In this document: positions 23,902 to 41,449 of the stretch, piece after piece
How positions within the stretch are numbered: position 1 is the stretch's first letter
Layout of the letters: each line of letters begins with the position of its first letter
From: Gemmobacter lutimaris
GTDB taxonomy: Bacteria; Pseudomonadota; Alphaproteobacteria; Rhodobacterales; Rhodobacteraceae
Direction: 5' to 3'
Assembly: GCF_003570715.1 (NCBI RefSeq)
Contig: NZ_QXXQ01000002.1
Location: forward strand, 372,001 to 436,000
Length of the DNA stretch: 64,000 bases
The notes under the pieces: generated by a model
Database searches by the model: none
The model's input: only the letters and a program-made list of their open reading frames with translations
What the model was told of the DNA's origin: nothing
Program-made: the position numbers and the translations under genes

Positions 23902-24777
23902 ATGGAACGGCATTTACTGGCAATCGGTTACGGCTATTCGGCGCGGGCACTGACGCGGCGCCTTCTGGCGCAGGGCTGGCGGGTCACCGGCACCACACGC
24001 AGCGCCGACCGTGCGGCTGCCATGGTGTCCGATGGGGTGACGCCCCTTGTCTGGCCCGGTGCCGATCTGGGCACAGCGGTCATGGGGGCGAGCCATATCC
24101 TGCTTTCCGCCGCGCCGGATGCGGCGGGCGATCCGGTTCTGACGGCGGCGCCAGAGGTGTTCGACCGGCCGTTGCCGGGGCTGCGTTGGCTGGGCTATCT
24201 GTCCACCACGGGGGTTTATGGCGACCACGCGGGCGGCTGGGTGGATGAGACGACGCCGCTGACCCCCGGCACCACACGCGGCCATCAGCGCGTCGCGGCC
24301 GAGGCCGGGTGGCAGGCGCTCGCCGCCGCGCAGGGCCTGCCCCTGCATATCTTCCGCCTTGCCGGGATCTACGGCCCCGGCCGTGGCCCGTTCCGCAAGG
24401 TGCAGGACGGCACCGCGCAGCGGATTGTGAAGCCGGGTCAATATTTCTCGCGCATCCATGTCGAGGACATCGCGCAGGTGCTGGGCGCTTCGATCAACCG
24501 GCCCGAGCCGGGGGCGATCTACAATGTCTGTGACGACGATCCATCGCCGCCGCAGGATGTGCTGACCCATGCGGCCGAGTTGCTGGGGGTGGACCTGCCG
24601 CCCGTGGTGCCGATTGACGAGGCCCAGATGACGCCGATGGCCCGCAGTTTCTATGCCGAAAGCAAGCGGGTGCGGAATGACCGGATGAAGCATGAGCTTG
24701 GCGTGCAGCTTGCCTATCCGACCTATCGGGAGGGGCTGGCGGCGCTACTGGCCGAACATCTCAGGTCAGGCGATTGA
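23902..24777 (+). CDS. NAD(P)-dependent epimerase/dehydratase (YeeZ-like SDR)
   Basis: 291 aa from ATG 23902. The N-terminal nucleotide fold begins LLAIGYGYSARALTRRLLAQG, with GYGYSA in place of GxxGxxG. SDR landmarks are YLSTTGVYGDHAGGWVDETTP (in pieces YLSTTGVYGDHAGG, WVDE), FRLAGIYGPGRGPF and FSRIHVEDIAQVL. The substrate Tyr-Lys pair of classical epimerases is not obvious. Function of YeeZ-type proteins is unclear. The 3' end overlaps the convergent MarR gene by 17 nt. Confidence 0.85.
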   Translation: MERHLLAIGYGYSARALTRRLLAQGWRVTGTTRSADRAAAMVSDGVTPLVWPGADLGTAVMGASHILLSAAPDAAGDPVLTAAPEVFDRPLPGLRWLGYLSTTGVYGDHAGGWVDETTPLTPGTTRGHQRVAAEAGWQALAAAQGLPLHIFRLAGIYGPGRGPFRKVQDGTAQRIVKPGQYFSRIHVEDIAQVLGASINRPEPGAIYNVCDDDPSPPQDVLTHAAELLGVDLPPVVPIDEAQMTPMARSFYAESKRVRNDRMKHELGVQLAYPTYREGLAALLAEHLRSGD

Positions 24778-25183
24778 GGAGCGCCATAAGTTGCGCCCGC
24801 TCTGCCCGGTTCAGCGGCTCCAGCGTGGCGGCGCTGATGCGCAGCCCGTCGGCATAGCGCGCGGCGATCAGCGCGGCGCCTGCCTCGGTCAGGGTGACGG
24901 TCAGGCGGCGCTTGTCGCCCGGATCGGCGGCGCGGGTCACAAGGCCCAGCTTTTCCAGCCGTCCCACCACGCCCTTCACCGTTGCCGCATCCATCGAGGC
25001 CGCGCGGCCCAGATGGTTCTGGCTCAGCGGCCCCTGCTGGTGCAGCCGCACAAGACAGGCGAATTGCATGGCGGTGATTTCGGGGATGTGCTGCGAGAAG
25101 ATCGCAAGGTGCCGCTGCGTCACCCGCCGCAGCAGGTAACCGACCTGATCGTCCAGCACATAGGGTTCGGTTTCCTCGCTCAC
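24761..25183 (-). CDS. MarR-family transcriptional regulator, probable regulator of the adjacent catabolic operon
   Basis: 140 aa from GTG 25183, with GGAGAGGG directly upstream; the longer frame through the promoter region is rejected. The winged helix-turn-helix occupies about 45-105: LGRAASMDAATVKGVVGRLE is the recognition-helix region and DPGDKRRLTVTLTEAG the wing. MarR proteins are dimeric and often released from DNA by aromatic or heterocyclic ligands. It is divergent from the 25.3-41.4 kb operon, whose promoter carries a perfect 16-bp palindrome, making it the likely local repressor. Confidence 0.88.
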   Translation of the reverse strand: MSEETEPYVLDDQVGYLLRRVTQRHLAIFSQHIPEITAMQFACLVRLHQQGPLSQNHLGRAASMDAATVKGVVGRLEKLGLVTRAADPGDKRRLTVTLTEAGAALIAARYADGLRISAATLEPLNRAERAQLMALLNRLT

Positions 25184-25283: not shown

Positions 25284-25298
25284 GTTTGTATACAAACA
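25283..25298. promoter_or_regulatory. Perfect 16-bp palindrome, operator candidate
   Basis: TGTTTGTATACAAACA equals its own reverse complement over all 16 bases. It is AT-rich in a GC-rich region and lies between the divergent MarR gene and the catabolic operon. MarR dimers use sites of this size; GntR-type regulators also use TTGTATACAA-like sites, so an unlinked GntR protein is an alternative. Confidence 0.65.
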
Positions 25299-25344: not shown

Positions 25345-26175
25345 GTGACCGATTACGCGCGCCCTGAAACGCTTGATCATGCGCTTGGCCTGCTGGCGGC
25401 GGGGGGCTGGCGTGTGCTGGCGGGCGGAACGGATCTTTACCCCGCCACGCCGCGCCGCGCGCTGGACTTCGCCGCACTGGACCTGACCGCGCTGCCGGGG
25501 ATGACCGCGATCACCGAAACCCCCGAGGGGCTGCGTATCGGCGCGGGGGCCACATGGTCCGCACTGGCTGCGGCCGATCTGCCGCCGGCCTGTGCGGCCC
25601 TGCAACACGCGTCGCGGCAGGTGGGGGGCTGGCAGATCCAGAATGCGGGCACCATCGGCGGCAATCTCTGCAATGCCTCGCCCGCCGCCGATGGTGCGCC
25701 GCCGCTGCTTGTGCTGGAGGCAGAGCTGGAGCTTGCCTCGCCCCGTGGTCCGCGCCGCCTGCCGCTGGCCGAATTTCTGACCGGGGTGCGGCAAACGGCG
25801 CTTGCGGTGGATGAACTGCTGCTGGCCGTGCATCTGCCACGCAAGGCGCTGACGGGGCGGTCGGCCTTCCAGAAGCTGGGCGCGCGGGCGCATCTGGTGA
25901 TCTCCATCGCCATGGTGGCGGCGCGGCTGCGGCTGGAGGGCGGAGTGATTGCCGAGCTTGCACTCTCCGCCGGGGCCTGTGCGCCGACCGCGCGCCGTCT
26001 GGCAGCGGCGGAAACGGCCTGCCGGGGTCTACCTCTGGCCGAGGCACTGGCGCGCATCACGCCCGATCTGCTGGCCGCTGACCTTGCCCCAATCGACGAC
26101 GTGCGCGGCAGCGCCGCCTATCGGCTGGAGGCGGCGGCAGAACTGACCCGCCGCACGATGGAGGCCTCGGCATGA
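25345..26175 (+). CDS. FAD-binding subunit of a xanthine-dehydrogenase-family hydroxylase
   Basis: 276 aa from GTG 25345 (GAGG upstream). PCMH-type FAD domain: the flavin-binding VLAGGTDLYPATPRRAL near the N-terminus and QNAGTIGGNLCNASPAADGA (the T-I-G-G-N motif) near residue 100, then the CO-dehydrogenase flavoprotein C-terminal domain with GACAPTARRL. It passes electrons from the Fe-S clusters of the partner to an acceptor. The downstream Fe-S/molybdopterin gene overlaps by 4 nt. The gene order parallels E. coli ygfM-xdhD. Confidence 0.9.
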   Translation: MTDYARPETLDHALGLLAAGGWRVLAGGTDLYPATPRRALDFAALDLTALPGMTAITETPEGLRIGAGATWSALAAADLPPACAALQHASRQVGGWQIQNAGTIGGNLCNASPAADGAPPLLVLEAELELASPRGPRRLPLAEFLTGVRQTALAVDELLLAVHLPRKALTGRSAFQKLGARAHLVISIAMVAARLRLEGGVIAELALSAGACAPTARRLAAAETACRGLPLAEALARITPDLLAADLAPIDDVRGSAAYRLEAAAELTRRTMEASA

Positions 26176-28826
26176 TCTGCGTTAACGGCAAGCCTGTCTC
26201 CCTAAGCGGCACCACCCGACGCCTGTCGGATGCGCTGCGGGAGGAGGCGGGGCTGACCGGCACCAAGGTCGGCTGCGATGCCGGTGATTGCGGCGCCTGC
26301 ACCGTGCTCATGGATGGTGCGCCGGTCTGCGCCTGCCTCACGCCCACCGCCCGCGCCAAAGGCCGCGATGTTACCACCATCGAGGCCGACGATCCGCTGC
26401 TGACCGCGCTTCGCGCCAGCTTCCTGCGTCATGGTGCGGCACAGTGCGGCATATGCACCCCCGGCATGCTGATGACGGCGCTGGCGCTGCTGCGCCGCAA
26501 CTCCACGCCCTCGCGCGCCGATGCCGAGGCCGCCTTGGGCGGTGTTCTGTGTCGCTGCACCGGCTATCAGGCCATTATCACAGCAGTCTGCGATACCGCG
26601 CCGCCGCCTGCCGCGCCCGAGGGGCGGGTGGGGCAGGCCATTCCCCGGCTGGATGGTGCCGCCAAGGTGGCGGGCGATCTGTTCGGCGCCGATGTCTGGC
26701 AGAAGGGCGGGCTGGTGGCGCGGGCGATCCGGTCGCCTCATCCGCATGCGCGCTTCACCTTCGGTGATCTGGCAGCCTGGGCCGCGGCGCAGCAGGCACA
26801 GGTGTTCACGGCTGCCGACATCCCCGGTCGCAATGCCTTTGGCGTCATCCCGGCCTTCGCAGACCAACCCGCGCTGGCCGAGGGCACGGCCCGCTTCCGG
26901 GGCGAGGCGGTCGCGTTGGTGGCCTTCGAGGATGGGGCGGAACCAGACCTTTCCAGCTTCCCGGTCAACTGGCAGCCTTTGCCGCCGGTGACGATGGCAA
27001 AGGCCGTGGCGCCGGATGCGCCGCTTGTCCATCCTTCCCGTCCCGGCAATCTGCTGATCGCAGGTCGGGTCCGGCGCGGCGATGCCGCTGCCGCGCTGGC
27101 GGATTCGGCCTTCGTGGTCGAGGGCGAGATGCAGACCGCTTTCGTCGAACATGCCTATATCGAGCCCGAGGCGGGTGCCGCCTGGATGGAAGGTGACACG
27201 CTTTGCATCCGGGCCTGCACCCAGGCGCCTGTGATGGACCGCGACGATACCGCCGCCGTGCTGGGCCTATCGCCGGAGCGGCTGCGTATCCTGCCCTCGG
27301 CGGTGGGGGGCGGGTTCGGCTCGAAACTGGATGTCAGCCTGCAACCGCTGATCGGGCTTGTCGCGCTGCGCACCGGGCGGCCGGTGCGGATGACCTACAG
27401 CCGCAGCGAAAGCATGACTTCCACCACCAAGCGCCATCCGGGGCGGATGCGCGCGGCGCTGGGCTGCGATGCCGAAGGGCGGCTGACGGGCATGACCTTT
27501 GACGGCAGTTTCGACACCGGCGCCTATGCAAGCTGGGGCCCGACGGTGGCCAACCGCGTGCCGGTTCATGCCTCCGGCCCCTACCGGATGCCCGCCTATG
27601 CGGCCGAAGCGCGGGCGGTGCATACGCATGGCCCGGTTTCCGGCGCGTTCCGGGGCTTCGGTGTGCCGCAGGCGATGCTGCTGTCGGAAACGCTGATGGA
27701 CCGGCTGGCCGAAACGGCAGGCATCGACGCGCTGGAGTTCCGGCTGCGCAACGCCCTGCGCGCGGGCGACGAAACCGCCACCGGCCAGCACCTCGCCGCA
27801 CCGGGCATACATGAATGCCTGATCGCGCTGCGCCCGCATTGGCAGCGCGCCTTGGTCGAGGCGCAGGCGCCGGGGCGCGGGGTGGGGCTGGCGACCTGCT
27901 GGTATGGCTGCGGCAATACCTCGCTGCCCAATCCGTCGACCATGCGGCTGGGCCTGACCAGTGCGGGCGTCCCGGTGCTGCATCAGGGCGCGACAGACAT
28001 CGGGCAGGGGTCCAACACCGTCATCCCGCAGATCGCGGCCGAGGCGCTGGGCCTGCCGCTTGCCGCCTTTCGCCTGATCGGCCCCGATACCGCACTGACG
28101 CCGGACGCGGGCAAGACCTCGGCCAGCCGGCAGACCTTCGTCTCGGGGCGTGCCGCGCAGGCGTCCGGGGCGGCGCTGCGGGCCGAGATCCTGCGGCGGC
28201 TGAACCTCGGTCAGGGCGCGCGGCTGACGCTGGAAGGCGCCACGCTGACAGGCACCGAAAACGGCCGGACCGCGCGGCTCGACCTGTCCGCGCTGCCCGA
28301 GGGCCCCTTTGGCTATGTGCTGATGGCCGAGGAAAGCTATGACCCGCCCACTGCGGCCCTGGACGAAAACGGGCAGGGCATCCCCTATGCCGTCTATGGC
28401 TTCGGCGCGCAGATGGTGGAGCTTGAGGTCGATGCTGCGCTGGGCACCGTGCGGCTGCTGAAAATCACCGCCGCGCATGACCTTGGCCGCGCCATCAACC
28501 CGCTGCTGGCAAGGGGCCAGATCGAGGGCGGTATCGCGCAGGGTATCGGCCTTGCGCTGATGGAGGAATACCTGCCCGGCCGGACCGAGAACCTGCATGA
28601 TTACCTGATCCCCACCACCTCGGACGTGCCGCCCATTGAAAGCCTACTGATCGAGGTGCCGGACCCGGAAGGCCCCTTCGGCGCCAAGGGCCTTGGCGAA
28701 CACACGCTGATCCCGACAGCGCCCGCAATCCTCAATGCGATCCGGCACGCGACCGGCATCGCGCTGACCCGCGTGCCGGTTCTGCCGCATCGGCTTCGCG
28801 CGGCGATTTCGGGGGGTAGGGCATGA
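26172..28826 (+). CDS. Fused [2Fe-2S] / molybdopterin subunit, xanthine-dehydrogenase family
   Basis: 884 aa. Residues 1-140 are the two-cluster Fe-S domain: a plant-ferredoxin-type set Cys35, Cys40, Cys43, Cys55 (GCDAGDCGACTV) and a helical set Cys92, Cys95, Cys127, Cys129 (QCGICTPGML, LCRCTGYQ). From about 150 follows the molybdopterin domain with VGGGFGSKLDVSLQP, SGAFRGFGVPQAML and the C-terminal GPFGAKGLGEHTLIPTAPAI, whose Glu is the expected catalytic base. Such enzymes hydroxylate N-heterocycles or aldehydes with water-derived oxygen. Fe-S/Mo fusion with a separate FAD subunit resembles E. coli XdhD/YgfM. Substrate not assignable. No XdhC maturation factor is nearby. Confidence 0.92.
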   Translation: MICVNGKPVSLSGTTRRLSDALREEAGLTGTKVGCDAGDCGACTVLMDGAPVCACLTPTARAKGRDVTTIEADDPLLTALRASFLRHGAAQCGICTPGMLMTALALLRRNSTPSRADAEAALGGVLCRCTGYQAIITAVCDTAPPPAAPEGRVGQAIPRLDGAAKVAGDLFGADVWQKGGLVARAIRSPHPHARFTFGDLAAWAAAQQAQVFTAADIPGRNAFGVIPAFADQPALAEGTARFRGEAVALVAFEDGAEPDLSSFPVNWQPLPPVTMAKAVAPDAPLVHPSRPGNLLIAGRVRRGDAAAALADSAFVVEGEMQTAFVEHAYIEPEAGAAWMEGDTLCIRACTQAPVMDRDDTAAVLGLSPERLRILPSAVGGGFGSKLDVSLQPLIGLVALRTGRPVRMTYSRSESMTSTTKRHPGRMRAALGCDAEGRLTGMTFDGSFDTGAYASWGPTVANRVPVHASGPYRMPAYAAEARAVHTHGPVSGAFRGFGVPQAMLLSETLMDRLAETAGIDALEFRLRNALRAGDETATGQHLAAPGIHECLIALRPHWQRALVEAQAPGRGVGLATCWYGCGNTSLPNPSTMRLGLTSAGVPVLHQGATDIGQGSNTVIPQIAAEALGLPLAAFRLIGPDTALTPDAGKTSASRQTFVSGRAAQASGAALRAEILRRLNLGQGARLTLEGATLTGTENGRTARLDLSALPEGPFGYVLMAEESYDPPTAALDENGQGIPYAVYGFGAQMVELEVDAALGTVRLLKITAAHDLGRAINPLLARGQIEGGIAQGIGLALMEEYLPGRTENLHDYLIPTTSDVPPIESLLIEVPDPEGPFGAKGLGEHTLIPTAPAILNAIRHATGIALTRVPVLPHRLRAAISGGRA

Positions 28827-28839
28827 GGCTGCTTTTATC

Positions 28840-28884
28840 TTGGCTTAAGTATCCTCGGGGGTGTGGGGGCCGACAGCCCCCACC
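28840..28884. repeat. Intra-operon AAGTATCCTCGGGG element with GC hairpin
   Basis: TTGGCTTAAGTATCCTCGGGG resembles the sequence before the hairpin at 4754. It is followed by a perfect 8-bp stem GTGGGGGC / GCCCCCAC with loop CGACA (28863-28883). It fills the 82-nt gap between the molybdopterin gene and the reductase-like gene, the largest break but one in the operon. It could attenuate or process the transcript. Confidence 0.6.
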
Positions 28885-28908
28885 AACCTCGCCATCCGGG
28901 GCCACGCC

Positions 28909-30348
28909 ATGACCAGTGCGCCTTCCGAAAAGATCCGCTGCGATGCCTGTCCGGTGATGTGCTACATCGCCCACGGTCAGACCGGCGCCTGCGACCGCTA
29001 TGCCAATGATGCGGGTCGCATCGTCCGCACCGATCCCCTGGTGATGCTGTCGCAGGCTCTGGCATCGGGCACCCCGGTCATTCCCTTCGCAGGTGCCGGC
29101 TGGGAGGGCACGTTGGCCCCGACCGACGCCACCGTCACCGCCATAGGCGCAGGCACCACCTACCCGGATTTCAAACCCGCGCCCTTCATCGTCGCCTCCC
29201 GTCCCGAGGGCGCCGACATGGTGACCGTGGTGACAGAGGCGATCTTTTCCTACTGCGGCGTCAAGGTGAAAATCGACACCGACCGCTTCCTTGGCCCCGA
29301 GGGCGCCACGGTCCGCGCGGGGGGCGAGGCGGTGGGGCATGTCACCACGGCCGAATATGGCTCGCAGATGCTGTCACTGGGGGGGGTGCATCACCTCACC
29401 GGCGGGTCAAAACCCGAAGGGCGGCTGACCTGTTCCACCCTGCTCGCGCTCTGCAACCGGGAGGCGGTGGAGTTGGCAATCGACGGCGGCTCGACCGTTA
29501 TCGTGCAGGCGGGGCGCGCGCCGATTGTGGATGGCAAGCCCGAGCACCGGATGCGCGTCGGCTGTGGCTCTGCCACCATCGGGATGTTCGCGGCGCAATG
29601 GCAGGGTCTGGTGGACGAGGTGGTGGTGGTGGACGACCATATCACCGGCGTGGTGTCGGAACATCAGGCGGGCAAGGTGATCGGCTGGCCGCCCAGCGGC
29701 ATCCGCATAAAGGGGCATCGGTCCACCCCCGGCCGCTATTTCCGCGTCTCCGACCCCGGCCTTGGCTGGGGCGGCACCCGGCTGACCGACCCGCTGGAAA
29801 TCCTCGGGTCCTGGGAGCCGAAGAAGGGTGCGCGGCCGGGGCTGAGCCTGTTGATGGTTTCGACCACGGGTGAGGATTGGGGCTTCTACATCCTCGACGA
29901 CAGCCTGACCCCGCAACCCGCCCCGCTGCCCGAAGCCCTGCGCGCCACTGTCGATCTGATCGCGGAAAACTGTGAACCCTCGCTTTGCACGGTGCTGTTC
30001 ATGGGCGGGGCAGGGGGCAGCCTGCGGGCAGGGGTCACGCGCAATCCGGTGCGGCTGACGCGTTCGGTCCAGACCGGGGAAACCGTGCTGACCTCGGGTG
30101 GCGCCGACTGCTACATCTGGCCCGGCGGCGGCATCACCTTCATGGTGGATGTGACGCGCCTGCCGCCCGGCGCTTTCGGCTATGTGCCGACCCCGGCGCT
30201 GGTGGCTCCGCTGGAGTTCACCCTGCCGCGCGACGCCTATCTTGCGCTGGGGGGCCACGCCGAGGCGATCCGCGATCTGCCCGACATCCTGCGCGTGGGC
30301 GGCGAATACCCGACCGCCGCGCGCATCCTGCCACGGGGGGAAGCATGA
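28909..30348 (+). CDS. 6-hydroxynicotinate-reductase-like iron-sulfur protein
   Basis: 479 aa from ATG 28909 (MTSAPSEKIRCDACPVMCYI). The N-terminus has a CX2CX3CX9C set (Cys11, Cys14, Cys18, Cys28), suggesting a [4Fe-4S] cluster. More cysteines lie at 116, 175, 182, 219, 355, 360 and 401. Gly-rich blocks such as VGCGSATIGMFAAQW and FMGGAGGSLRAG follow. I recognise the family annotated as 6-hydroxynicotinate reductase; the Eubacterium barkeri enzyme reduces 6-hydroxynicotinate to its tetrahydro-oxo form and carries Fe-S clusters and a covalent flavin. This protein lacks an obvious extra ferredoxin domain, so substrate and exact cofactors remain open. It follows the hydroxylase genes and overlaps the UPF0280 gene. 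Confidence 0.75.
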   Translation: MTSAPSEKIRCDACPVMCYIAHGQTGACDRYANDAGRIVRTDPLVMLSQALASGTPVIPFAGAGWEGTLAPTDATVTAIGAGTTYPDFKPAPFIVASRPEGADMVTVVTEAIFSYCGVKVKIDTDRFLGPEGATVRAGGEAVGHVTTAEYGSQMLSLGGVHHLTGGSKPEGRLTCSTLLALCNREAVELAIDGGSTVIVQAGRAPIVDGKPEHRMRVGCGSATIGMFAAQWQGLVDEVVVVDDHITGVVSEHQAGKVIGWPPSGIRIKGHRSTPGRYFRVSDPGLGWGGTRLTDPLEILGSWEPKKGARPGLSLLMVSTTGEDWGFYILDDSLTPQPAPLPEALRATVDLIAENCEPSLCTVLFMGGAGGSLRAGVTRNPVRLTRSVQTGETVLTSGGADCYIWPGGGITFMVDVTRLPPGAFGYVPTPALVAPLEFTLPRDAYLALGGHAEAIRDLPDILRVGGEYPTAARILPRGEA

Positions 30349-31184
30349 TGGCCGCCGAAGCCCGCCGCCTGCCCGATGGCCGCCTGCATCTGCACCACGG
30401 CCCGATGGACCTGATCCTTGGCGCCGATGGCACGTCAGAGGCGGTAGAGGCCGCTTTCACCGCTGCCACCGCCCGCTTCGCGCCGCTGCTGGAGGAACTC
30501 GTCGCCGAGCTTCCCGCGCTGCGCAGCGCTGCGTCGCTGCCCCTGCACGGGGCCACAGCGCGGCGGATGGCACAGGCGGTGGCGCCGCATCGGCCGGGTT
30601 TCATCACCCCGATGGCCGCCGTTGCGGGTGCGGTGGCCGAGACGGTGCTGGACGTCATGCCGCGTCCCGGCCTGACCCGCGCCCATGTGAACAACGGCGG
30701 CGACATCGCGCTGTATCTGACGCCCGGCACCCGCTACAGCGCCGCCATCGCGGGCAGCGAGGCCCGCGTGACGATCCAGCATGCCGATCCGGTGCGCGGC
30801 ATCGCCACCTCGGGCTGGCGCGGGCGCAGCCAGTCGCTTGGCATTGCCGATGCCGTCACCGTGCTGGCCGCCAGCGCCGCCGCCGCCGATGCCGCCGCGA
30901 CGATGATCGCCAACGCGGTGGACCTGCCGGGCCATCCCGGCATTACCCGTCTGCCCGCGCGGCAGGTGAAGCATGACAGCGACCTTGGCGATCTGCCAGT
31001 GACCATCGGCGTGGCGCCATTGACCAGGGATGAGGCAGAGACCGCCCTGGCCCGCGGCGCGGTCGTCGCCCGACGGCTGATCAATTCGGAAGTGATTGCC
31101 GGGGCGGCGCTTTTCCTCCACCCTTGCCTGCAAACCCTCGGCCAGCCGCTGCTGGCCCCCATGCCGGAGCCCTGCCTTGGCTGA
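30345..31184 (+). CDS. UPF0280 family protein (ApbE-like fold)
   Basis: 279 aa from ATG 30345 (overlapping the previous stop; ATG 30348 is equally possible), GGGGGAAGC upstream. UPF0280 landmarks are AGAVAETVLDVM, AHVNNGGDIALYLTPG and IATSGWRGRSQSLGIADAVTVLA. The N-N-G-G-D and S-x-G-I-A-D-A motifs echo the flavin-transferase ApbE fold (N-x-G-G-D, S-x-x-A-D-A-x-x-T). Biochemical function is not established to my knowledge. Since the characterised 6-hydroxynicotinate reductase has covalent flavin, a role in flavinylating the upstream protein is an attractive inference. Overlaps the next gene by 8 nt. Confidence 0.8.
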   Translation: MMAAEARRLPDGRLHLHHGPMDLILGADGTSEAVEAAFTAATARFAPLLEELVAELPALRSAASLPLHGATARRMAQAVAPHRPGFITPMAAVAGAVAETVLDVMPRPGLTRAHVNNGGDIALYLTPGTRYSAAIAGSEARVTIQHADPVRGIATSGWRGRSQSLGIADAVTVLAASAAAADAAATMIANAVDLPGHPGITRLPARQVKHDSDLGDLPVTIGVAPLTRDEAETALARGAVVARRLINSEVIAGAALFLHPCLQTLGQPLLAPMPEPCLG

Positions 31185-31758
31185 TTTTCCCATCCGCAAG
31201 ATCGTGACGCTGACCGAAGAGATCCGCCATGACGGCGGCCCCGCGCCCGACGGGCCGCGCCTGCGCGGCGCCGTGGTCGCGGTGGTGAAGAACCCCTTTG
31301 CCGGGCGCTTCGTGCCCGACCTGCAAGCCGCGATGGATGACCTGAAGCCGCTGGGCCTTGCCATGACCGACCGGCTGATTTCGGCGTTGGGGGGGCGGGA
31401 CGGTATCGACGCCTATGGCAAGGGCGCCATCGTCGGCGCGGCGGGCGAGCTGGAGCATGGCGCGCTCTGGCACGTTCCGGGCGGCTATGCGATGCGCGAG
31501 CGGCTCGGCGAAAGCCGCGCCATCGTGCCCTCGGCCAAGAAGCTGGGGCCGATGGGTGCCAGCATCGACATTCCCATCGGTCATATCAACGCGGCCTATG
31601 TCCGCAGTCATTTCGACGCGATGGAGGTCACGGTTCCCGATGCGCCAAAGCCGGACGAGATCGCCTTTATCCTCGTCATGGCCAAGGGGCCGCGTATCCA
31701 TGCCCGGATGGGCGGGCTGGAAGTGCATCAAGTGAAGGGGGAGGACGGGCTGCGATGA
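31177..31758 (+). CDS. PF06684 'amino acid synthesis' family protein
   Basis: 193 aa. The best start is TTG 31177 (MADFPIRKIVTLTEEI) with GGAG 8 bases upstream; it overlaps the UPF0280 stop by 8 nt. Family landmarks are RGAVVAVVKNPFAGRFVPDL, YGKGAIVGAAGELEHGALWH, PSAKKLGPMGASIDIPIGHI and a C-terminal MAKGPRIHARMGGL. Crystal structures of this family (formerly DUF1185) show a chorismate-mutase-like fold and only suggest a metabolic role. Located mid-operon, it probably acts on an intermediate of the same pathway or binds a ligand. No catalytic residues can be named. Confidence 0.8.
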   Translation: MADFPIRKIVTLTEEIRHDGGPAPDGPRLRGAVVAVVKNPFAGRFVPDLQAAMDDLKPLGLAMTDRLISALGGRDGIDAYGKGAIVGAAGELEHGALWHVPGGYAMRERLGESRAIVPSAKKLGPMGASIDIPIGHINAAYVRSHFDAMEVTVPDAPKPDEIAFILVMAKGPRIHARMGGLEVHQVKGEDGLR

Positions 31759-33168: not shown

Positions 33169-33214
33169 ACATACAAAACCATACGGGCGGAACGCCCGGC
33201 CAACAGGGGAGACG

Positions 33215-34507
33215 ATGATGACGACCGACCTCGCAGGCCTCAAGACCAACCGCCGCCGCGTTCTGGGCGGCCTTGCCGCCGGGGGCGCGCTGATGCTGGG
33301 CGCGGCGCCGCGCTTCGTGCAGGCGCAATCCTCGGCCCCGATCAAACTGGGGTTCCAGTTGCACCGCACCGGCATCGGCGCCGCCTACGGCCGCTGGTAT
33401 GAACGCACGACGCAAGCGGCGCTGAAGCTCCTGAACGATCAGGGCGGCATCAATGGTCGCCCGGTCGAAATCGTGTTCGAGGATGACGGCACCGACCCCA
33501 AGCGCGGCGCCGAGGTGGTGGAAAAGCTGACCACGCAGGCCGGGTGCGACCTGATTTTCGGGCCGCTGTTCAGCCATGTCGTCATCGGCTCTGCCCCCCG
33601 CGCGGGCGAGTTGAAGGTGCCCTATCTGGTTTGCTCTGAAGGCTATCACGTTGCCAGCGGCATGCTGAACCGCTGGACGCTGCAACCGGGCATCACCGAT
33701 GTGCGCGCGCAGGTCAGTTCCATGGCGCCCTGGGTCATGCAAAACCTCGGCAAGAAGGTGACCATGGTCTTCCCTGACTATGCTTTCGGCCATGATCACC
33801 GCGATTTCTTTACCGAGGCGGTGAAGGCGCAGGGCGGCGAGGTGATCGCCCAGATCGCCATTCCGCCGACCGAGACCAGCTTCACCCGCTATCTGCCGCA
33901 GATTCCGGCGGAAACCGAAGTGCTGTATCATGTCATGGTTGGCCCCGCCGTCCTGACCTTCGTGAAGGAGTTGGGCGAGTTCTACGGCAGCGGCGCGCGC
34001 CCGCAGATTTTTGGCTTCATCGACAGTCTGGAGGCGGTGGATACCGCAGCACCCGGGCTGGAATTCCTTGAGGGCACGCATTTCTGGGAAGGCCATTGCC
34101 GGGTGAAACAGGCGGATGCGCCGGAATGGGAAAGCACCTATCGCGCCGCTGTGGGCGTGGATGACAACGGCGCCTCGGTCAGCGGTGCGCGGGACGTGGC
34201 GACCTATGCGCATATGTTTTCCTGCTGGGAGACGCTGTTCGTCATCAAGAAGGGGATGGAGGCCTCGGGCTATCAATCCACCGCGGACCGGCAGAAATTC
34301 GTCGAGGCCATCGAAGCGATGACGGCTTTCGACGCCGGGCTGGAGCATGTGCAGGGCGCCAAGACCTTCAACGGCAAGACCCATCAGGTGTTCGGCCAGC
34401 AGTTCATCTCGAAGGTCGAGGGCGGCAAGCTGATGCGGGTGCATGCGACCTCGATCGACGACGGCATGTATCCCGATGCGGTGGATTACACCGCGCAAAG
34501 CTTCTGA
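33215..34507 (+). CDS. ABC transporter substrate-binding protein (branched-chain amino acid type)
   Basis: 430 aa from ATG 33215 (a second ATG follows at 33218; GGGGAG upstream). A twin-arginine-like leader TNRRRVLGGLAAGGALMLG ends near FVQAQ, so the protein is probably exported folded. The mature part is a type I periplasmic binding protein (Peripla_BP_6/LivJ-like): LLNDQGGINGRPVEIVFEDD, KLTTQAGCDLIFGPLFSHV, VTMVFPDYAFGHDHRDFF and LPQIPAETEVLYHVMVGP. This class binds amino acids, amides, urea or small acids. Its place between heterocycle-modifying enzymes and hydantoinase genes suggests it captures the pathway substrate. Confidence 0.9.
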   Translation: MMTTDLAGLKTNRRRVLGGLAAGGALMLGAAPRFVQAQSSAPIKLGFQLHRTGIGAAYGRWYERTTQAALKLLNDQGGINGRPVEIVFEDDGTDPKRGAEVVEKLTTQAGCDLIFGPLFSHVVIGSAPRAGELKVPYLVCSEGYHVASGMLNRWTLQPGITDVRAQVSSMAPWVMQNLGKKVTMVFPDYAFGHDHRDFFTEAVKAQGGEVIAQIAIPPTETSFTRYLPQIPAETEVLYHVMVGPAVLTFVKELGEFYGSGARPQIFGFIDSLEAVDTAAPGLEFLEGTHFWEGHCRVKQADAPEWESTYRAAVGVDDNGASVSGARDVATYAHMFSCWETLFVIKKGMEASGYQSTADRQKFVEAIEAMTAFDAGLEHVQGAKTFNGKTHQVFGQQFISKVEGGKLMRVHATSIDDGMYPDAVDYTAQSF

Positions 34508-34516
34508 AAGGGGACA

Positions 34517-34540: not shown

Positions 34541-34548
34541 GCTGACAT

Positions 34549-35424
34549 ATGGGAACAGGACCGTTTCTTCTGCTCGCCTCGCTTGAAGGCATGGTGATGG
34601 CCGCCGTGCTGGCGCTGACCGCCGTAGGGCTGAGCCTCACTTTCGGCGTCATGCGGGTGGTCAATGTGGCGCATGGCGAGTTCTTCATGCTGGGCGCCGT
34701 GCTGGCCTGGGTGGTGGCGCAGGCGGTGCCCTCGGCGCCGCTGGGCTTTGTCGCGGCGCTGATCCTGTGCCCGCTGGTGGTGGGGGCGGTGGCGGCGCTG
34801 GCCGATACCGCAATCCTCAAGCGCCTGAATTACGACCCGGAGGCGACCATCGTGGCGACCATCGGGATTTCCTACATCCTGCAACAGGGCGCGCTGAGCT
34901 TCTTTGGCCCCGATGCCCGCGCGGTGGAGGCACCGTTCAGCCTGCGGCTGCAATTCCCGTGGTTCGGCTATTCCGGCTACAAGCTGTTCGTGGTGGTCGC
35001 GGCGGGGCTGGTCCTGCTGGCGGTCTGGCTGTTCATGACACGCAGCCGCGCGGGGCTGGTGATGCGCGCGACGCAGGTGGACCGCAATACCGCCCGCGCC
35101 TTCGGGATCAACGTCGATCGCGTCTATGCGGGCACCTTCGCGCTGGGCGCGGCGCTGGCCGCCGTGGCGGCGGTGCTGATCGTGCCGATCCAGCAGGCCC
35201 ATTACCTGATGGGGCATGACCCGCTGCTCCTGAGCTTCATCGTTGTGATCATCGGCGGGCTGGGGTCCATCCGGGGCACGCTGATCGCGGCGCTGCTGAT
35301 CGGGCTGTCGGACGGCATCATCTCGATGTTCTTCACGCCAACGCTGGCCAAGATCGTGGCGACGCTGGCGGTGGCGCTGGTGTTGGTGTTCCGCCCGCAG
35401 GGCCTGTTCGGGGCGCGGGCATGA
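34549..35424 (+). CDS. Branched-chain amino acid-type ABC permease (LivH family)
   Basis: 291 aa, about eight membrane segments. LivH-type features: ALTAVGLSLTFGVMRVVNVAHGEFFMLGA at the N-terminus (as pieces LTFGVMRVVNVAHGEF) and, near the C-terminus, FIVVIIGGLGSIRGTLIAAL, which contains the ATPase-coupling GGLGS loop. It forms the membrane channel with the following LivM homologue. The 3' end overlaps that gene by 4 nt. Confidence 0.92.
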   Translation: MGTGPFLLLASLEGMVMAAVLALTAVGLSLTFGVMRVVNVAHGEFFMLGAVLAWVVAQAVPSAPLGFVAALILCPLVVGAVAALADTAILKRLNYDPEATIVATIGISYILQQGALSFFGPDARAVEAPFSLRLQFPWFGYSGYKLFVVVAAGLVLLAVWLFMTRSRAGLVMRATQVDRNTARAFGINVDRVYAGTFALGAALAAVAAVLIVPIQQAHYLMGHDPLLLSFIVVIIGGLGSIRGTLIAALLIGLSDGIISMFFTPTLAKIVATLAVALVLVFRPQGLFGARA

Positions 35425-36356
35425 GGGCGCTGTCGCTGCATCTGGCGGTTCTGGCCCTGCTGCTGGGGCTGCATTTCGTGCTGCCGGCCTATCACCACGC
35501 CAATCTGGCGCGGATCATGGTGCTGGCGGTCTTTGCCATGGGGTATAACATTGCCTTCGGCTACACGGGGCTGCTGAGCCTTGGCCATGCGTTGCTCCTG
35601 TCGGCGGGCATGTTCGGCGCGGGGCTGTTGATCCAGCATTTCGGGCTGACCGCCGCGCCTGCTTTGCTGATCGGCACCTTGGCTGGCGCCGCCATGGCCG
35701 CCGTGACCGGCTTGCTGGCGCTGCGCACCACCGGGGTCAGCCTGATGATCGTCACGCTGATGTTCGCGCAGGCAGGCTATCTGACGCTGCTTTACTTCGG
35801 TGCGGTCACCGGCGGGGACGAGGGCTTCCCCGTGCCCGCCGCCGGGCGGGTCGCCTTCGGGCTGAACCTTGCGGCAGAGGGGCCGCGCTATCTGGTGGCG
35901 CTGGGCCTGTTCGCGGTCGCGCTGATGGGCAATCTGGCGCTGGTGCGGTCGCGCTTCGGCCGCGTCATGGTCGCCATGCGCGAGAACGAGGAACGCAGCC
36001 GCATGCTGGGCTACAACCCCTTCGCGGTGAAGCTGGGGTTGATGGCGCTGTCCGGCCTTTATGCCGGGGCGGCGGGGGCGTTCTACGGGGTGATGTTCGG
36101 CTATGTCGGTGCCACCTTCGCCACCATCCCCTATTCCATCCTGCCCCTGCTTTACGTCCTCTTGGGCGGGGCAGGGGTGACCTTGGGGCCGCTTCTGGGC
36201 GCCGTTCTGATGTTCTATCTGATCGACTTGGCCTCCAGCCATACCACGGTGCAACTGGCGGTCACCGGCGGCGCGCTGCTGGTGCTGGTGCTGTTCGCGC
36301 CGAAGGGCATTCTGGGCAGCTTGCGGGAAAGGGGGCTGGCGTCATGGCTTCCATGA
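35421..36356 (+). CDS. Branched-chain amino acid-type ABC permease (LivM family)
   Basis: 311 aa, about nine membrane segments. LivM hallmarks: MGYNIAFGYTGLLSLGHALL, SRFGRVMVAMRENEERSRMLGYN (as RFGRVMVAMRENEERSRMLG) and PLLYVLLGGAGVTLGPLLGA. Partner of the LivH-type permease. Overlaps both neighbours (4 nt and 13 nt), indicating strict co-expression. Confidence 0.92.
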   Translation: MRALSLHLAVLALLLGLHFVLPAYHHANLARIMVLAVFAMGYNIAFGYTGLLSLGHALLLSAGMFGAGLLIQHFGLTAAPALLIGTLAGAAMAAVTGLLALRTTGVSLMIVTLMFAQAGYLTLLYFGAVTGGDEGFPVPAAGRVAFGLNLAAEGPRYLVALGLFAVALMGNLALVRSRFGRVMVAMRENEERSRMLGYNPFAVKLGLMALSGLYAGAAGAFYGVMFGYVGATFATIPYSILPLLYVLLGGAGVTLGPLLGAVLMFYLIDLASSHTTVQLAVTGGALLVLVLFAPKGILGSLRERGLASWLP

Positions 36357-37066
36357 TCTTGCAGGCCGAGGGTCTGAAGCGGCATTTTGGCGGGTTGAAG
36401 GCGGTGGATGGCGTCGATCTGGCGCTGAACGCGGGCGAGATTCATGCGCTGATCGGGCCGAATGGCGCGGGTAAGACCACGCTGGTCAGCCTGCTGTCGG
36501 GGCGGCAGGTGCCCGATGCCGGGACCATCCGCTTTGACGGCGCCGACATCACCCGCCTGCCCGCGCATGAACGGGTGCGGCGCGGTATCGGCTATACCTT
36601 CCAGATCACCGCGATCTATGCCGGGCTTTCGGTTTTCGACAACCTCGCGCTGGCGGTGCAGCGTGGCCATCCGCGCGATCTGTCCGGCGCGGTGACCGAG
36701 GCGGCGGCGCGGGTGGGGCTGGAGGCTCTGTTGCCGCAGATTGCCGGAACGCTCAGCTACGGGCATCAGCGGTTGTTGGAGATCGGCATGGGCCTTGCGC
36801 TGCATCCCCGGCTTCTGATCCTTGACGAGCCGACGCAGGGCTTTGCGGCGGGCGAGATCGAGGGGTTCATGGCGCTGGTGCGCGGGCTGGTGCCCGCAAC
36901 GACTGTGCTGCTGATCGAACACAACATGGATGTGGTCATGGCGCTGGCCGAACGGATCACGGTGCTGGATCAGGGGCGCGTGCTGGCCTCGGGCCTGCCG
37001 GCCGAAATCCGCGCGAACCGGGCTGTGCAGGACGCCTATCTGGGGGGCAGCCATGCTGGTGATTGA
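36344..37066 (+). CDS. ABC transporter ATP-binding protein (LivG family)
   Basis: 240 aa from ATG 36344 (AAAGGGGG upstream; ATG 36353, overlapping the livM-type stop, is an alternative). Walker A is GPNGAGKTTL, the Q-loop FQITAIYAGLSVFDNL, the signature region LSYGHQRLLEIGMGLA (a variant of LSGGQ) and Walker B LLILDEPTQGF. It powers the importer with the LivF-type subunit. The LSYGHQ signature is common in LivG proteins. Confidence 0.92.
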   Translation: MASMILQAEGLKRHFGGLKAVDGVDLALNAGEIHALIGPNGAGKTTLVSLLSGRQVPDAGTIRFDGADITRLPAHERVRRGIGYTFQITAIYAGLSVFDNLALAVQRGHPRDLSGAVTEAAARVGLEALLPQIAGTLSYGHQRLLEIGMGLALHPRLLILDEPTQGFAAGEIEGFMALVRGLVPATTVLLIEHNMDVVMALAERITVLDQGRVLASGLPAEIRANRAVQDAYLGGSHAGD

Positions 37067-37748
37067 GGGGCTGACCGCAGGCTATGGCGGCGCGCCGGTG
37101 CTGCATGGTGTGGGCCTGCATGCAGCGCCCGGCAAGGTGACCTGCGTCATGGGCCGCAATGGCGCGGGCAAGACTACGCTGATGCGGGCGATCATGGGCC
37201 AGTTGCGGGCGTCCTCGGGCACGATTCATCTGGATGGCGAGGCGCTGCATGGCCTGCCCGCGCATGAGGTGCCCCGTCATGGGGTGGCGCTGGTGCCGCA
37301 GGGGCGGCGGCTGTTCGGGCCGCTGACCGTGGCCGAGAATATCGAGATCGGGCTGATGACCCGCCGCAAGGGCCGCGCGGTGCGCGAGCATGTGCTGGAC
37401 CTGTTTCCCCGGCTGCGTGAACGGCTGGACCAGCAGGCTCGCACGCTGTCGGGGGGCGAACAGCAGATGCTCGCGCTGGCCCGTGCGCTGTGTCTGGAAC
37501 CCAAGGTCTTGCTGCTGGATGAACCGACCGAGGGGTTGCAGCCCTCGATGATCCGGCTGATTCGCGACACGGTGCTGAAGCTGAAGGCGACCGGCGTCGC
37601 CGTGGTGCTGGTGGAACAGCGGGTGGAGGCGGTGCTGGAGGTCGCGGATAGCGTGGCCTTCATGGCGCAGGGCCGGGTGGCCGAGGTGCTGCCGGCCCAT
37701 GGGCTGACGCCGCAATCACCGCAATTCGCAACCTGGGTGGGGGTGTAG
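37053..37748 (+). CDS. ABC transporter ATP-binding protein (LivF family)
   Basis: 231 aa from ATG 37053, overlapping the LivG-type gene by 14 nt with GGGGGG just upstream. Walker A GRNGAGKTTLMRAIMG, Q-loop VPQGRRLFGPLTVAENI, signature LSGGEQQMLALARAL, Walker B VLLLDEPTEGLQPSMI. The P-Q-G-R-R-x-F and E-G-L-x-P motifs place it in LivF. It completes a five-component importer. The hyuA-like gene starts directly after its stop. Confidence 0.92.
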   Translation: MLVIEGLTAGYGGAPVLHGVGLHAAPGKVTCVMGRNGAGKTTLMRAIMGQLRASSGTIHLDGEALHGLPAHEVPRHGVALVPQGRRLFGPLTVAENIEIGLMTRRKGRAVREHVLDLFPRLRERLDQQARTLSGGEQQMLALARALCLEPKVLLLDEPTEGLQPSMIRLIRDTVLKLKATGVAVVLVEQRVEAVLEVADSVAFMAQGRVAEVLPAHGLTPQSPQFATWVGV

Positions 37749-39776
37749 ATGGCCGGGCTGGTCGCAGGGGTCGATGTCGGGGGGACGTTCACGGATCTGG
37801 TGATCTTCGATCCCGGCTCGGGCGCGGTGCGGCTGGCCAAGGTGCCGACGACGCTGGACAATCAGGCGCATGGGGTGATGGCGGCCTTTGAGGCCGCCGG
37901 GGCCGATCTGGCGCAGGTGGCGCTTGTGGTGCATGGCACCACGACCACCACCAACGCGGTGCTGGAACGCAACCTTTGCCGCACCGGGCTTGTGACGACG
38001 GAAGGCTTCCGCGATGTGCTGGAACTGGGCCGCCGCACCCGGCCGCAGCCCTATGGCATGACCGGCCGTTTCGTGCCGGTGATCCCGCGCGACCTGCGGC
38101 TGGAAGTGCCTGAGCGTATGGATGCCGAGGGCCGCGTGGTCACCCCGCTGGACGAGGCTGCGTTGCGCGACGCCATTACCGCGCTGGTGGCGGCGGGTTG
38201 CGAAAGTCTGGTCATCCACTTCCTGCACAGTTACGCCAACCCCGCGCATGAACTGCGCGCGCTGGAGATCGCGCGCGACCTCTGGCCCACGCCCTATATC
38301 ACCGCCGGGCATCAACTGCTGTCGGAAAGCCGGGAGTTTGAACGCGGCGTGACGGCGGCGGTGAATGCGGCGGTGCAACCGTTGCTGGAGCGTTACGTCT
38401 CGCGCCTCGCGGCGGAACTGAAGGGCAGGGGCTACCGTGCTGACCTTCTGGTGATGAACGGCAATGGTGGCATGGTCAGTGCCGCCCATGTCGCGCGCGA
38501 GGCGGTGAAGACGGTGATGTCCGGCCCCGCTTCGGGAGTGATGGCGGCCTGCTACACCGGGCAGCGCGCCGGGATGGCGAACCTGATTACCTATGACATG
38601 GGAGGCACCTCGACCGATGTGGCGCTGATCCGCGACGCGCGCCCGCCGGTCTCGAACGAGATCGAGGTGGAATATGCCATGCCGATCCATGTGCCGATGG
38701 TGGATGTGCGCACCGTCGGCGCCGGTGGCGGGTCGATCGCGCGGGTCAATGCGGCGGGGATGCTGCGGGTCGGGCCGGAAAGCGCGGGCGCGATGCCCGG
38801 CCCGGTCTGCTATGGCCGGGGCGGCACGCAGGTCACGATTTCGGATGCGAACCTGATCCTTGGCCGCTTGCCCACCGAACGCTTCGGTCAGGCGGCAGAA
38901 GCCGCCCGCGCCGCGATGGAAGATCAGATCGCCCGCCCGCTGGGCCTGTCGGTCGAGGCCGCGGCCGAGGCGGTGCTGCGCATCGCCAATACCCATATGG
39001 CGGGGGCGATCCGCATGGTGTCGATCTCCATGGGGGCGGACCCCCGCGATTTTGCGCTGTTCGCCTTTGGCGGGGCAGGGCCGCTGCATGCGGCGGAGCT
39101 GGCGCGCGAACTCGCCATTCCGCGTGTGCTGATCCCGGCGCGGCCGGGGATCACCAATGCGCTGGGCTGCACGGTCGCCGATCTGCGCCACGATTTCGTG
39201 CGCACGGTGAACCGCCCGCTGGATACGGTGGATATGGATGCCGTCCATGCCCTCTGGGCCGGGCAAGAGGCACAGGGCCGCGCGCTGATCGCGGCCGAGG
39301 AAGTGGCGCTGATCGGGGTGGAGGCCGAATTTTCCGCCGATATGCAATTCGTCGGCCAGACCCACCTTCTGCGCGTGCCGCTGCCCGATGGCGCCCCCAC
39401 GCGCGCCGATCTTCAGGCGCGGTTCGAGGCGGCCTATCACGCCCGGTTCCGCGTCGATCTGCCGGAGATTCGCGCCAATCTGGTGAACCTGAATTGCAGC
39501 GTCATCGGCCGCCGCCCCGATCTGGATCTGTCGCGCCTGATCGACCCGGCGGGGCGGCGCGATCTGGCGGGCGCCCTGACGGGGCGGCGGCAGGTCTGGT
39601 TCGGCGGTTGGCAGGATGTGCCGGTCTACCGCCGCGAATGGTTGCCCGCCGACGCGGTGCTGGAGGGCCCTGCGATCATCGAACAGATGGATACGACGAC
39701 GCTTCTGCCCCCCGGCGACCGGATGGAGACGGATGCGATGGGCAATCTGATCCTGACAGTCGGAGGCGGCGCATGA
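37749..39776 (+). CDS. Hydantoinase/oxoprolinase subunit A (HyuA-like)
   Basis: 675 aa, starting immediately after the LivF-type stop. The ASKHA-type ATP site is seen in GVDVGGTFTDLVIFDPGSG and VHGTTTTTNAVLERN near the N-terminus, and YDMGGTSTDVALIRD and FGGAGPLHAAELARELAI (ATP- and phosphate-binding) in the core and second half. Members are ATP-dependent cyclic-amide hydrolases (N-methylhydantoinase, 5-oxoprolinase) or carboxylases of the acetone-carboxylase group. With HyuB it most likely opens a lactam or imide ring. It overlaps hyuB by 4 nt. Confidence 0.9.
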   Translation: MAGLVAGVDVGGTFTDLVIFDPGSGAVRLAKVPTTLDNQAHGVMAAFEAAGADLAQVALVVHGTTTTTNAVLERNLCRTGLVTTEGFRDVLELGRRTRPQPYGMTGRFVPVIPRDLRLEVPERMDAEGRVVTPLDEAALRDAITALVAAGCESLVIHFLHSYANPAHELRALEIARDLWPTPYITAGHQLLSESREFERGVTAAVNAAVQPLLERYVSRLAAELKGRGYRADLLVMNGNGGMVSAAHVAREAVKTVMSGPASGVMAACYTGQRAGMANLITYDMGGTSTDVALIRDARPPVSNEIEVEYAMPIHVPMVDVRTVGAGGGSIARVNAAGMLRVGPESAGAMPGPVCYGRGGTQVTISDANLILGRLPTERFGQAAEAARAAMEDQIARPLGLSVEAAAEAVLRIANTHMAGAIRMVSISMGADPRDFALFAFGGAGPLHAAELARELAIPRVLIPARPGITNALGCTVADLRHDFVRTVNRPLDTVDMDAVHALWAGQEAQGRALIAAEEVALIGVEAEFSADMQFVGQTHLLRVPLPDGAPTRADLQARFEAAYHARFRVDLPEIRANLVNLNCSVIGRRPDLDLSRLIDPAGRRDLAGALTGRRQVWFGGWQDVPVYRREWLPADAVLEGPAIIEQMDTTTLLPPGDRMETDAMGNLILTVGGGA

Positions 39777-41449
39777 TTGACCCGGTGACACTCGCCGTCA
39801 TTCAGGCGGGGTTGCAACAGGTCTGCGACGAGATGGACCTGACCTTCTCGCGCGCGGCCTTCTCGCCCGTCATTGCCGAGGCGGATGACCGTTCCGATGG
39901 TATCTATTCGGCGGAAGATGGCAGCCTGATCGCGCAAGGCGCGCGGGGGTTGCCGGTTTTCGTGGGCACGATGCAGTTTTCCACCCGCCACCTGATCGGG
40001 CGTATCGCCAGCGGCGAGACCTCGGCCCCAGAACCGGGCGACATTTATATCGTCAACGACCCCTACCTTGGCGGCACGCATCTGATGGATGTGCGCTTTG
40101 CGCTGCCCTTCTATCGGGCGGGGCGGCTGTGGTGCTGGCTGTCGAACACCGGCCACTGGCCAGATACGGGCGGCGCGGTGCCGGGGGGCTTTTCCGCCTC
40201 GGCCACGGCGGCGGAGCAAGAAGGGCTGCGCCTGCCGCCGGTGAAGCTGTTCAAGCGGGGGCAGATGGACCGCGAGATCTGGCAGATCATCTGTTCCAAC
40301 ATCCGCGTGTCCGGCCAGCGCATCGGGGATGTGAAGGCACAGGCGGCAGCGCTGCTGGTCGGGGCCGAACGGCTTGGCGCGCTGATGGACCGTTACGGCG
40401 ATGATATCGTGGCCGGGGCGATTGCCGAGATGCGGGCGCTGGCGGCGCGGCAGATGCGCGCGAATATCGCGCTGGTGCCGGACGGGGTTTATACCGCGAA
40501 AGCCTGGGTGGACAGCGACGGGGTGGTGAACGAGCCGCTGGAAATCGCGCTCTCGGTGGCAAAAACCGCAGACGGGCTGGTCTTCGATTTCACCGGCTCG
40601 TCGGCGCCCTGCGCGGGGCCGATGAACTCGGTCCGTGCCACCACGCTGTCGTCGGTCTATCTGGCGATGCGGCATATCTTTCCCGATGTGCCGATCAGTG
40701 CGGGGGCCTTTGAGCCGCTCACAGTGCGCGGCATTGAAGGCACTTTCCTTGACGCCCATTACCCCCGCCCTGTGTCGGGCTGCGCGGCAGAGGTCAGCCA
40801 GCGCATCGCCGAGGCGGTGTTTGCCGCCATGGTGCAGGCGTTGCCGGACCGGGTGACCGCCGCACCGGCCGGGACCAGCGGCAATTTTGGTCTTGGCGGG
40901 CATGACCCGGAAAAGGGTCGCGACTATGTGATGTATCAGATTTCCGGTGGCGGTTATGGCGGCAATGCAGACCATGACGGACTGTCCAATGGCTGTTCCA
41001 CCATCGGCATTTCCAAGGCGCCGCCGGTCGAGATCATGGAACAGAACTTCCCGGTGCTTTACCGCCGCTATGCGTTGCATGAAGGTTCGGGCGGGGCGGG
41101 GCGGTATCGGGGGGGCTTCGGGCTGGATTACGAGATCGAACTCCGGCGTGGCACCGCGCGGGCGAGCTTCGTGATGGACCACGGGCGAAGTGGCCCGCAA
41201 GGCGTGCTGGGCGGGCAGGATGGCGGGGTGAACCGGGTCGAGGTGATCCGGGGCGCCGAGGTCTGGGTGCCGCCGCATCTGTCCAAGGCACAGGACGTGC
41301 CGCTGCAACCCGGCGACCGGGTGCGTGTCCGCACGCCCGGCGGCGGCGGCTACGGCGATCCTGCAACGCGCGCGCCCGAAGCGGTGGCCGAGGATCTGCG
41401 GCTGGGCCGTTACACCGCCGAAGAAGTGGCGCGGCTGTTTAGGCGCTGA
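39773..41449 (+). CDS. Hydantoinase/oxoprolinase subunit B (HyuB-like)
   Basis: 558 aa from ATG 39773 (GGAGG upstream, ATGA overlap with hyuA). HyuB hallmarks: MQFSTRHLIG, GDIYIVNDPYLGGTHLMDVR, WLSNTGHWPDTGG, VFDFTGSSAPCAGPMNSVRA (as DFTGSS and GPMN), SGGGYGGNADHDGLS, and the C-terminal VRVRTPGGGGYGDPATRAP. It is the catalytic partner of HyuA. Last gene of the operon; a strong hairpin terminator follows at 41458. Confidence 0.92.
   Translation: MIDPVTLAVIQAGLQQVCDEMDLTFSRAAFSPVIAEADDRSDGIYSAEDGSLIAQGARGLPVFVGTMQFSTRHLIGRIASGETSAPEPGDIYIVNDPYLGGTHLMDVRFALPFYRAGRLWCWLSNTGHWPDTGGAVPGGFSASATAAEQEGLRLPPVKLFKRGQMDREIWQIICSNIRVSGQRIGDVKAQAAALLVGAERLGALMDRYGDDIVAGAIAEMRALAARQMRANIALVPDGVYTAKAWVDSDGVVNEPLEIALSVAKTADGLVFDFTGSSAPCAGPMNSVRATTLSSVYLAMRHIFPDVPISAGAFEPLTVRGIEGTFLDAHYPRPVSGCAAEVSQRIAEAVFAAMVQALPDRVTAAPAGTSGNFGLGGHDPEKGRDYVMYQISGGGYGGNADHDGLSNGCSTIGISKAPPVEIMEQNFPVLYRRYALHEGSGGAGRYRGGFGLDYEIELRRGTARASFVMDHGRSGPQGVLGGQDGGVNRVEVIRGAEVWVPPHLSKAQDVPLQPGDRVRVRTPGGGGYGDPATRAPEAVAEDLRLGRYTAEEVARLFRR

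Follow-up and report, generated by a model that had tools for sequence, protein, structure and literature searches.

Which enzyme opens the ring in bacteria that carry a 6-hydroxynicotinate reductase and no enamidase? This question is raised by a gene cluster on a 64,000-nucleotide stretch of the Gemmobacter lutimaris genome (contig NZ_QXXQ01000002.1, positions 372,001 to 436,000; the whole stretch is called the window below). The cluster encodes a molybdenum hydroxylase (25345-28826) and a 6-hydroxynicotinate-reductase-like Fe-S flavoprotein (HNR), together with a UPF0280 protein, a PF06684 protein, a five-part ATP-binding cassette (ABC) importer (33215-37748), and HyuA and HyuB, the two subunits of a hydantoinase-type enzyme; the hydroxylase, reductase, UPF0280, PF06684, importer and HyuA/HyuB genes were confirmed where a sequence-only reading of the window had placed them (Table 1). 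The reductive nicotinate pathway of Eubacterium barkeri shares the hydroxylation and the subsequent HNR reduction to 1,4,5,6-tetrahydro-6-oxonicotinate (THON), but it is composed of nicotinate dehydrogenase, HNR and enamidase, whereas the window has HyuAB instead of enamidase, and an importer, a PF06684 gene and a MarR gene besides, in a member of the Alphaproteobacteria.

We consider it likely that the cluster is an operon for nicotinate uptake and reductive degradation in which HyuAB acts as the ring opener. In this scheme, the ABC importer would bring in nicotinate, the hydroxylase, with its molybdenum, Fe-S and flavin adenine dinucleotide (FAD) centers, would convert it to 6-hydroxynicotinate (judging from family and context), and HNR, as its family suggests, would reduce the product to THON. 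HyuAB would open the THON lactam with ATP, HyuA activating the lactam and the HyuB metal site hydrolyzing it, and the resulting enamine would decay to 2-formylglutarate and ammonium; in other genomes, enamidase performs the THON ring opening. An uptake-and-degradation system for an N-heterocycle had been proposed earlier, and the look of the gene set supports it.

HyuAB and enamidase at the proposed ring-opening step

Among 185 HNR neighborhoods, 36 held an enamidase relative, 70 held HyuAB, none held both, and 79 had neither in the stretch. The amidohydrolase of the enamidase-type loci is closely related to the enamidase of E. barkeri (2vun, E 1e-106). When whole genomes were searched with identity cut-offs applied, the 46 HNR-positive genomes of the order sample were divided between HyuA (18) and enamidase (28), with no genome having both or neither, and the HyuA subfamily was found in 0 of the 103 HNR-negative genomes. 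A further 77 HNR-positive genomes contained HyuA only (41), enamidase only (34), or both (2), and none had neither. Accordingly, all 123 HNR-positive genomes comprised 59 with HyuA only, 62 with enamidase only, 2 with both and 0 with neither (Fisher p=3e-33 for the either-or pattern, a value that ignores the kinship of the genomes). The window's own genome gave no enamidase match at E 1e-60, which agrees with the earlier statement that enamidase is absent, and the near-perfect complementarity over 123 genomes upholds the suggestion that HyuAB takes its place. The sole two genomes scored as having both, G633 and G695, carry HyuA and an enamidase relative of 61-62% identity. Stops were seen inside 5 of 29 enamidase matches in the order sample and 9 of 36 accepted matches in the second set; in the 6 of these that were inspected, the stop lay in one of the final two codons of the match.

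The HNR tree contained 183 of the 185 loci (two were without an uninterrupted stretch of 420 amino acids), of which 143 made up the labelled tree. Parsimony on the 143 labelled rows gave 10 ring-opener changes, 7 of them forced by branches with at least 95% support in the SH-like approximate likelihood ratio test (SH-aLRT), and the swap between HyuAB and enamidase seems, from this tree, to have occurred several times in related bacteria. The window's HNR clade (clade I, 92 rows) had HyuAB nearby in 47 rows, neither enzyme in 45 and enamidase in none, and 12 clade I genomes checked whole contained HyuA only in 11 cases and both in one (G695). Taken at the level of gene content, replacement of enamidase by HyuAB at the ring-opening step is strongly supported, and the near-perfect either-or pattern would be a clear case in nature of one step at which unrelated enzymes have repeatedly replaced each other.

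Among known structures, those matched by HyuA and HyuB are N-methylhydantoinase and caprolactamase (HyuA: 7hk5, 3e-126, and 6yra_A, 2e-114; HyuB: CapB, 6yra_B, 7e-73). With the CapAB caprolactamase and N-methylhydantoinase they share the HyuA/HyuB domains and the four residues of the CapB metal site, since HyuB D39, H103, D106 and H128 align with CapB D41, H99, D102 and H124, and all 48 aligned rows retain them. Mutants of these CapB residues had no detectable activity, according to PMC8453981 (which writes D101 in its abstract and D102 in its table). In contrast to CapAB, the pair in the window scores far under the curated NCBIfam caprolactamase cut-offs (NF050156 and NF050157, not reached at 488 of 1000 and 297 of 1000 bits for the HyuA/HyuB pair), and HyuAB is tied to HNR.

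Substrate of the cluster

The sequence-only reading had regarded the substrate as undescribed, a view that the comparisons do not support. Four lines of evidence indicate nicotinate as the most likely substrate: nicotinamidase neighbors, annotated nicAB genes in a HyuAB cluster, the exchange with enamidase described above, and a near-zero number of fixed differences. Of 186 stretches, 19 had a nicotinamidase gene near HNR (17 of the 19 belong to clade I, and 7 have HyuAB in the same stretch), compared with about 1 stretch expected at random (estimated as 20 kb in about 4 Mb). The gene of locus L067 scored 220 bits against the NF008623 cut-off of 174, and that of L074 matched 2wt9 (E 2e-69). 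A HyuAB-type cluster on a Neorhizobium plasmid is annotated nicA, nicB, fpr, hnr, hyuA and hyuB, and by tblastn the UPF0280, PF06684 (two relatives), membrane protein, importer and MarR genes of the window all have relatives in it. The plasmid NicB has a C-terminal cytochrome c domain, and relatives of it (55%) were present in the HyuAB-type loci L126 and L127. Fixed differences in HNR numbered 1 between clade I and enamidase-type clade II, 2 between clade I and HyuAB-type clade II, and 0 between the two types within clade II, and the same three comparisons of the molybdenum subunit (162 sequences passing identity and score filters) gave 1, 1 and 0. These counts rest on 174-182 (HNR) and 236-252 (molybdenum subunit) shared conserved columns, with a maximum of 2 differences across the six comparisons. 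Structural relatives of the molybdenum subunit in the PDB include the nicotinate dehydrogenase subunits of 3hrd.

Several observations count against this assignment and against the exchange on which it partly rests. The window's cluster is itself without a nicotinamidase, although one is encoded elsewhere in its genome, and the best PDB match of the molybdenum subunit is aldehyde oxidoreductase 1sij, ranking above 3hrd. Identity cut-offs underlie the either-or pattern, and they were chosen after gaps had been seen, at 63 vs 48% (order sample) and 55 vs 49% (second set, where two second copies at 53-54% were the exception) for HyuA, and at 52 vs 44% and 61 vs 45% for enamidase. If the cut-offs are dropped, a more distant HyuA (40-49% identity) also turns up at E 1e-150 in 19 of the 62 genomes scored as enamidase-only (10 from the order sample, 9 from the second set), and 11 HNR-negative genomes of the order hold a distant HyuA too. 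Two HyuA genomes, G251 and G434, hold a distant enamidase relative at E 1e-60 (41 and 38%), and the HNR-negative G013 has one of 44%. Finally, no clade I locus is enamidase-type, so the exchanges within clade II bear on clade I only by inference.

In a variant of this scheme, the HNR of genomes with HyuAB would carry the reduction of 6-hydroxynicotinate through to 6-oxopiperidine-3-carboxylate. Hydrolysis of this true delta-lactam would be uphill, which would explain the use of ATP, and would yield 2-(aminomethyl)glutarate. ATP would fit a saturated lactam, because caprolactam hydrolysis is endergonic (PMC8453981). However, with 0 fixed differences over 182 HNR columns between HyuAB-type and enamidase-type loci within clade II, the HNR product is probably the same in both, and we regard full reduction, which is a variant of the nicotinate operon and not exclusive of it, as unlikely. 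Slightly less probable still is that clade I clusters, including the window's, have a related pyridine as their substrate, for example picolinate or homarine (N-methylpicolinate), where HyuAB would open a saturated or N-methyl lactam and enamidase would be of no use. Enamidase is indeed near HNR in 0 of 92 clade I rows, and homarine breakdown is reportedly encoded by a conserved operon. A paper cited by title in PMC13390433 reports that a homarine pathway is conserved in environmental bacteria. A related pyridine is nevertheless at odds with the nicotinamidase genes of 17 clade I loci, with the 1-2 fixed differences that separate hydroxylase and HNR from clade II, and with the finding of no N-methylglutamate dehydrogenase among the 10 recurrent neighbor-family representatives whose domains were looked up. 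That HyuAB is merely co-transcribed and serves an unrelated substrate is highly improbable, and 5-oxoproline and hydantoin were disfavored despite the matches to hydantoinase-type structures, because the HyuA subfamily tracks HNR (all 18 HyuA genomes of the order sample are HNR-positive and without enamidase) and is kept with it even where the two lie on different contigs (G078) or some 60 kb apart (G141), a tie that a response to 5-oxoproline, named earlier as a contrary outcome, fails to explain.

The nicotinate operon with HyuAB would be a variant of the known reductive pathway with ATP-dependent ring opening, a step on which searches of the openly licensed literature found no paper. The enamidase route gives THON and 2-formylglutarate (PMC9304392). 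An HNR cluster has been tied to nicotinate breakdown in strain SG-6C, which shares this cluster with Azorhizobium and Bradyrhizobium and degrades nicotinate with 6-hydroxynicotinate appearing transiently (PMC3511419). Like the window's, that cluster includes HNR, the genes of the first three steps, an ABC importer and two conserved proteins of unknown function, probably UPF0280 and PF06684, but the word "hydantoin" is absent from the main text of the paper. Nicotinate and hydantoinase are absent from the main text of the paper on PF06684 structures (PMC2954203). If the proposed pathway is correct, it would complete reductive degradation of nicotinate (vitamin B3) in many Alphaproteobacteria without enamidase, and name a reaction for a HyuAB subfamily annotated only as hydantoinase or oxoprolinase.

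A possible role of UPF0280 in supplying the flavin of HNR

UPF0280 was present in 185 of 185 HNR neighborhoods, and in the order sample its genome set was the same as that of HNR (all 46 HNR-positive genomes and none of the 103 HNR-negative ones); by this co-occurrence HNR has an obligate partner in UPF0280. The HNR of E. barkeri has a covalently bound flavin. The AlphaFold model of UPF0280 (pLDDT 94.4) matched DVU1097 first in Foldseek (E 9e-9), followed by ApbE-type flavin transferases at E 7e-5 to 1e-3 and probability 1.00. In these ApbE-type matches the TM-scores were low (0.34-0.50 by query length) and identity was 10-18%. The identical genome set, the ApbE-like predicted fold and the covalent flavin of E. 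barkeri HNR together raise the hypothesis that UPF0280 attaches or supplies the flavin of HNR. Residue 163 of UPF0280, which we placed by eye near what we take to be the catalytic His of ApbE, is not conserved. Among the papers listed that name DUF375, UPF0280 or DUF1185 (20 of 33 in the openly licensed literature), none assigned UPF0280 a function, judged from titles or the beginnings of abstracts, and this uncharacterized family would gain a testable role if the hypothesis is true. The fuller proposal, combining HyuAB as an ATP-dependent THON hydrolase repeatedly exchanged with enamidase and UPF0280 as a dedicated HNR flavin transferase or loader, is put forward tentatively, as somewhat less probable than not on the present sequence comparisons.

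In HNR itself, Cys 11, 14, 18, 28, 116, 219 and 355 were invariant in 184 sequences. The motif GCGSAT was considered as a flavin-attachment site and dropped, its Thr being Ala in 29 of the 184. The AlphaFold model of HNR had a pLDDT of 78, and its best PDB match reached only E 0.12.

Operon layout, regulation and distribution

The sequence-only reading had described a MarR-controlled, same-strand operon of twelve genes, most of them overlapping by 1-14 nt. The gene set stands, but from the window's open reading frames and Pfam/NCBIfam there are 13 co-directional genes on the + strand (25345-41449), the membrane protein included, and the MarR gene lies on the - strand, divergent from them. Overlaps do predominate (8 of 12 junctions), with a range of 4-14 nt, and the remaining junctions are gaps of 82, 83, 41 and 0 nt. 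Neither HNR nor the membrane protein had a Pfam or NCBIfam match; the latter presumably resembles proteins annotated as fenitrothion hydrolase.

Table 1. Features of the cluster in the window
Feature	Position	Strand	Evidence and remarks
MarR-family regulator gene	24761..25183	-	GTG start; Pfam MarR 3e-14; divergent from operon
Perfect 14-bp palindrome, candidate MarR operator	25284..25297	.	MarR-FAD spacer; sole copy within window
FAD subunit, molybdenum hydroxylase	25345..26175	+	FAD_binding_5 1.6e-39
Fused [2Fe-2S]/molybdopterin hydroxylase subunit	26172..28826	+	MoCoBD_1, MoCoBD_2, Fer2, Fer2_2; proposed nicotinate 6-hydroxylase
6-hydroxynicotinate-reductase-like Fe-S flavoprotein (HNR)	28909..30348	+	Relatives annotated 6-hydroxynicotinate reductase
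UPF0280/DUF375 protein	30345..31184	+	NF003322 350 bits (above cut-off of 290); relatives annotated UPF0280
PF06684 (AA_synth/DUF1185) protein	31177..31758	+	TTG start; Pfam 8e-70; PDB 3byq 7e-54, 2qtp 2e-41
Membrane protein	31755..33131	+	Without family; relatives adjoin binding-protein gene in many loci
ABC importer binding protein	33215..34507	+	Peripla_BP_6 4e-52 (query began at 33212)
ABC importer permease 1	34549..35424	+	BPD_transp_2 1e-36
ABC importer permease 2	35421..36356	+	Gene order; relative annotated branched-chain permease
ABC importer ATPase 1	36344..37066	+	ABC_tran 1e-31
ABC importer ATPase 2	37053..37748	+	Gene order; relative annotated ABC ATP-binding protein
HyuA, ATP-binding subunit of proposed ATP-dependent ring-opening enzyme	37749..39776	+	Hydantoinase_A 1e-88
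HyuB, metal-site subunit of proposed ring-opening enzyme	39773..41449	+	Hydantoinase_B 8e-155

The operon is probably under MarR control. When the 12-bp core of the palindrome was compared with the MarR-FAD spacers of 64 relatives, the best match in each had 0-5 mismatches (1-3 in 56 of 64), compared with a mean of 5.0 in shuffled spacers, the 64 relatives not being independent of one another. A scan for consensus promoters and terminators remained at shuffle level, with 1 and 8 sites vs shuffle means of 1.7 and 9.1.

HNR was present in 46 of 149 genomes of the order (including the window's own) and in 32 of its 73 sampled genera, in 69 of 385 class-sample genomes (one match, G328 at E 5.6e-4, being spurious), and in 21 of 299 phylum-sample genomes. 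Searches by genome handle covered the 69 class positives apart from G328 and from G211, G372, G437, G458 and G483, which are 68-86% complete. A scan with one genome per species gave 239 HNR relatives, and among the 80 of the 239 that were taken as loci, the nearest was that of Gemmobacter caeni, 96% identical and with an identical layout. Of 26 plasmid matches, 7 were inspected, and one of these (L217) was without annotation. The gene set stays together, in several arrangements, in loci of Rhodobacterales, Rhizobiales and SAR116; the neighborhood is not unique to this genome, as the sequence-only reading had allowed it might be, and its recurrence is more than chance.

Some loci showed features of their own. 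PF06684 was present in two copies in 28 of 36 enamidase-type neighborhoods (e.g., L112, L131 and L133), and the 70 HyuAB-type neighborhoods had one copy in 56, two in 5 and none in 9. The record of L066 is titled Exiguobacterium profundum (metagenome-assembled genome SSD5) and contains a Rhodobacteraceae-type cluster of 56-83% identity, so it is probably mislabelled. The HNR match of L208 (G175) is broken into two adjacent pieces that lie in different frames, which points to a frameshift or a sequencing error. An old yellow enzyme (OYE)-type flavin mononucleotide oxidoreductase flanks the cluster, at about 0-6 kb, in 17 clade I loci (L033, L036, L039-L041, L043-L045, L047-L051, L055, L058, L060 and L118), and a TetR-type gene is found in 14 clade I loci; the two probably form a flanking block.

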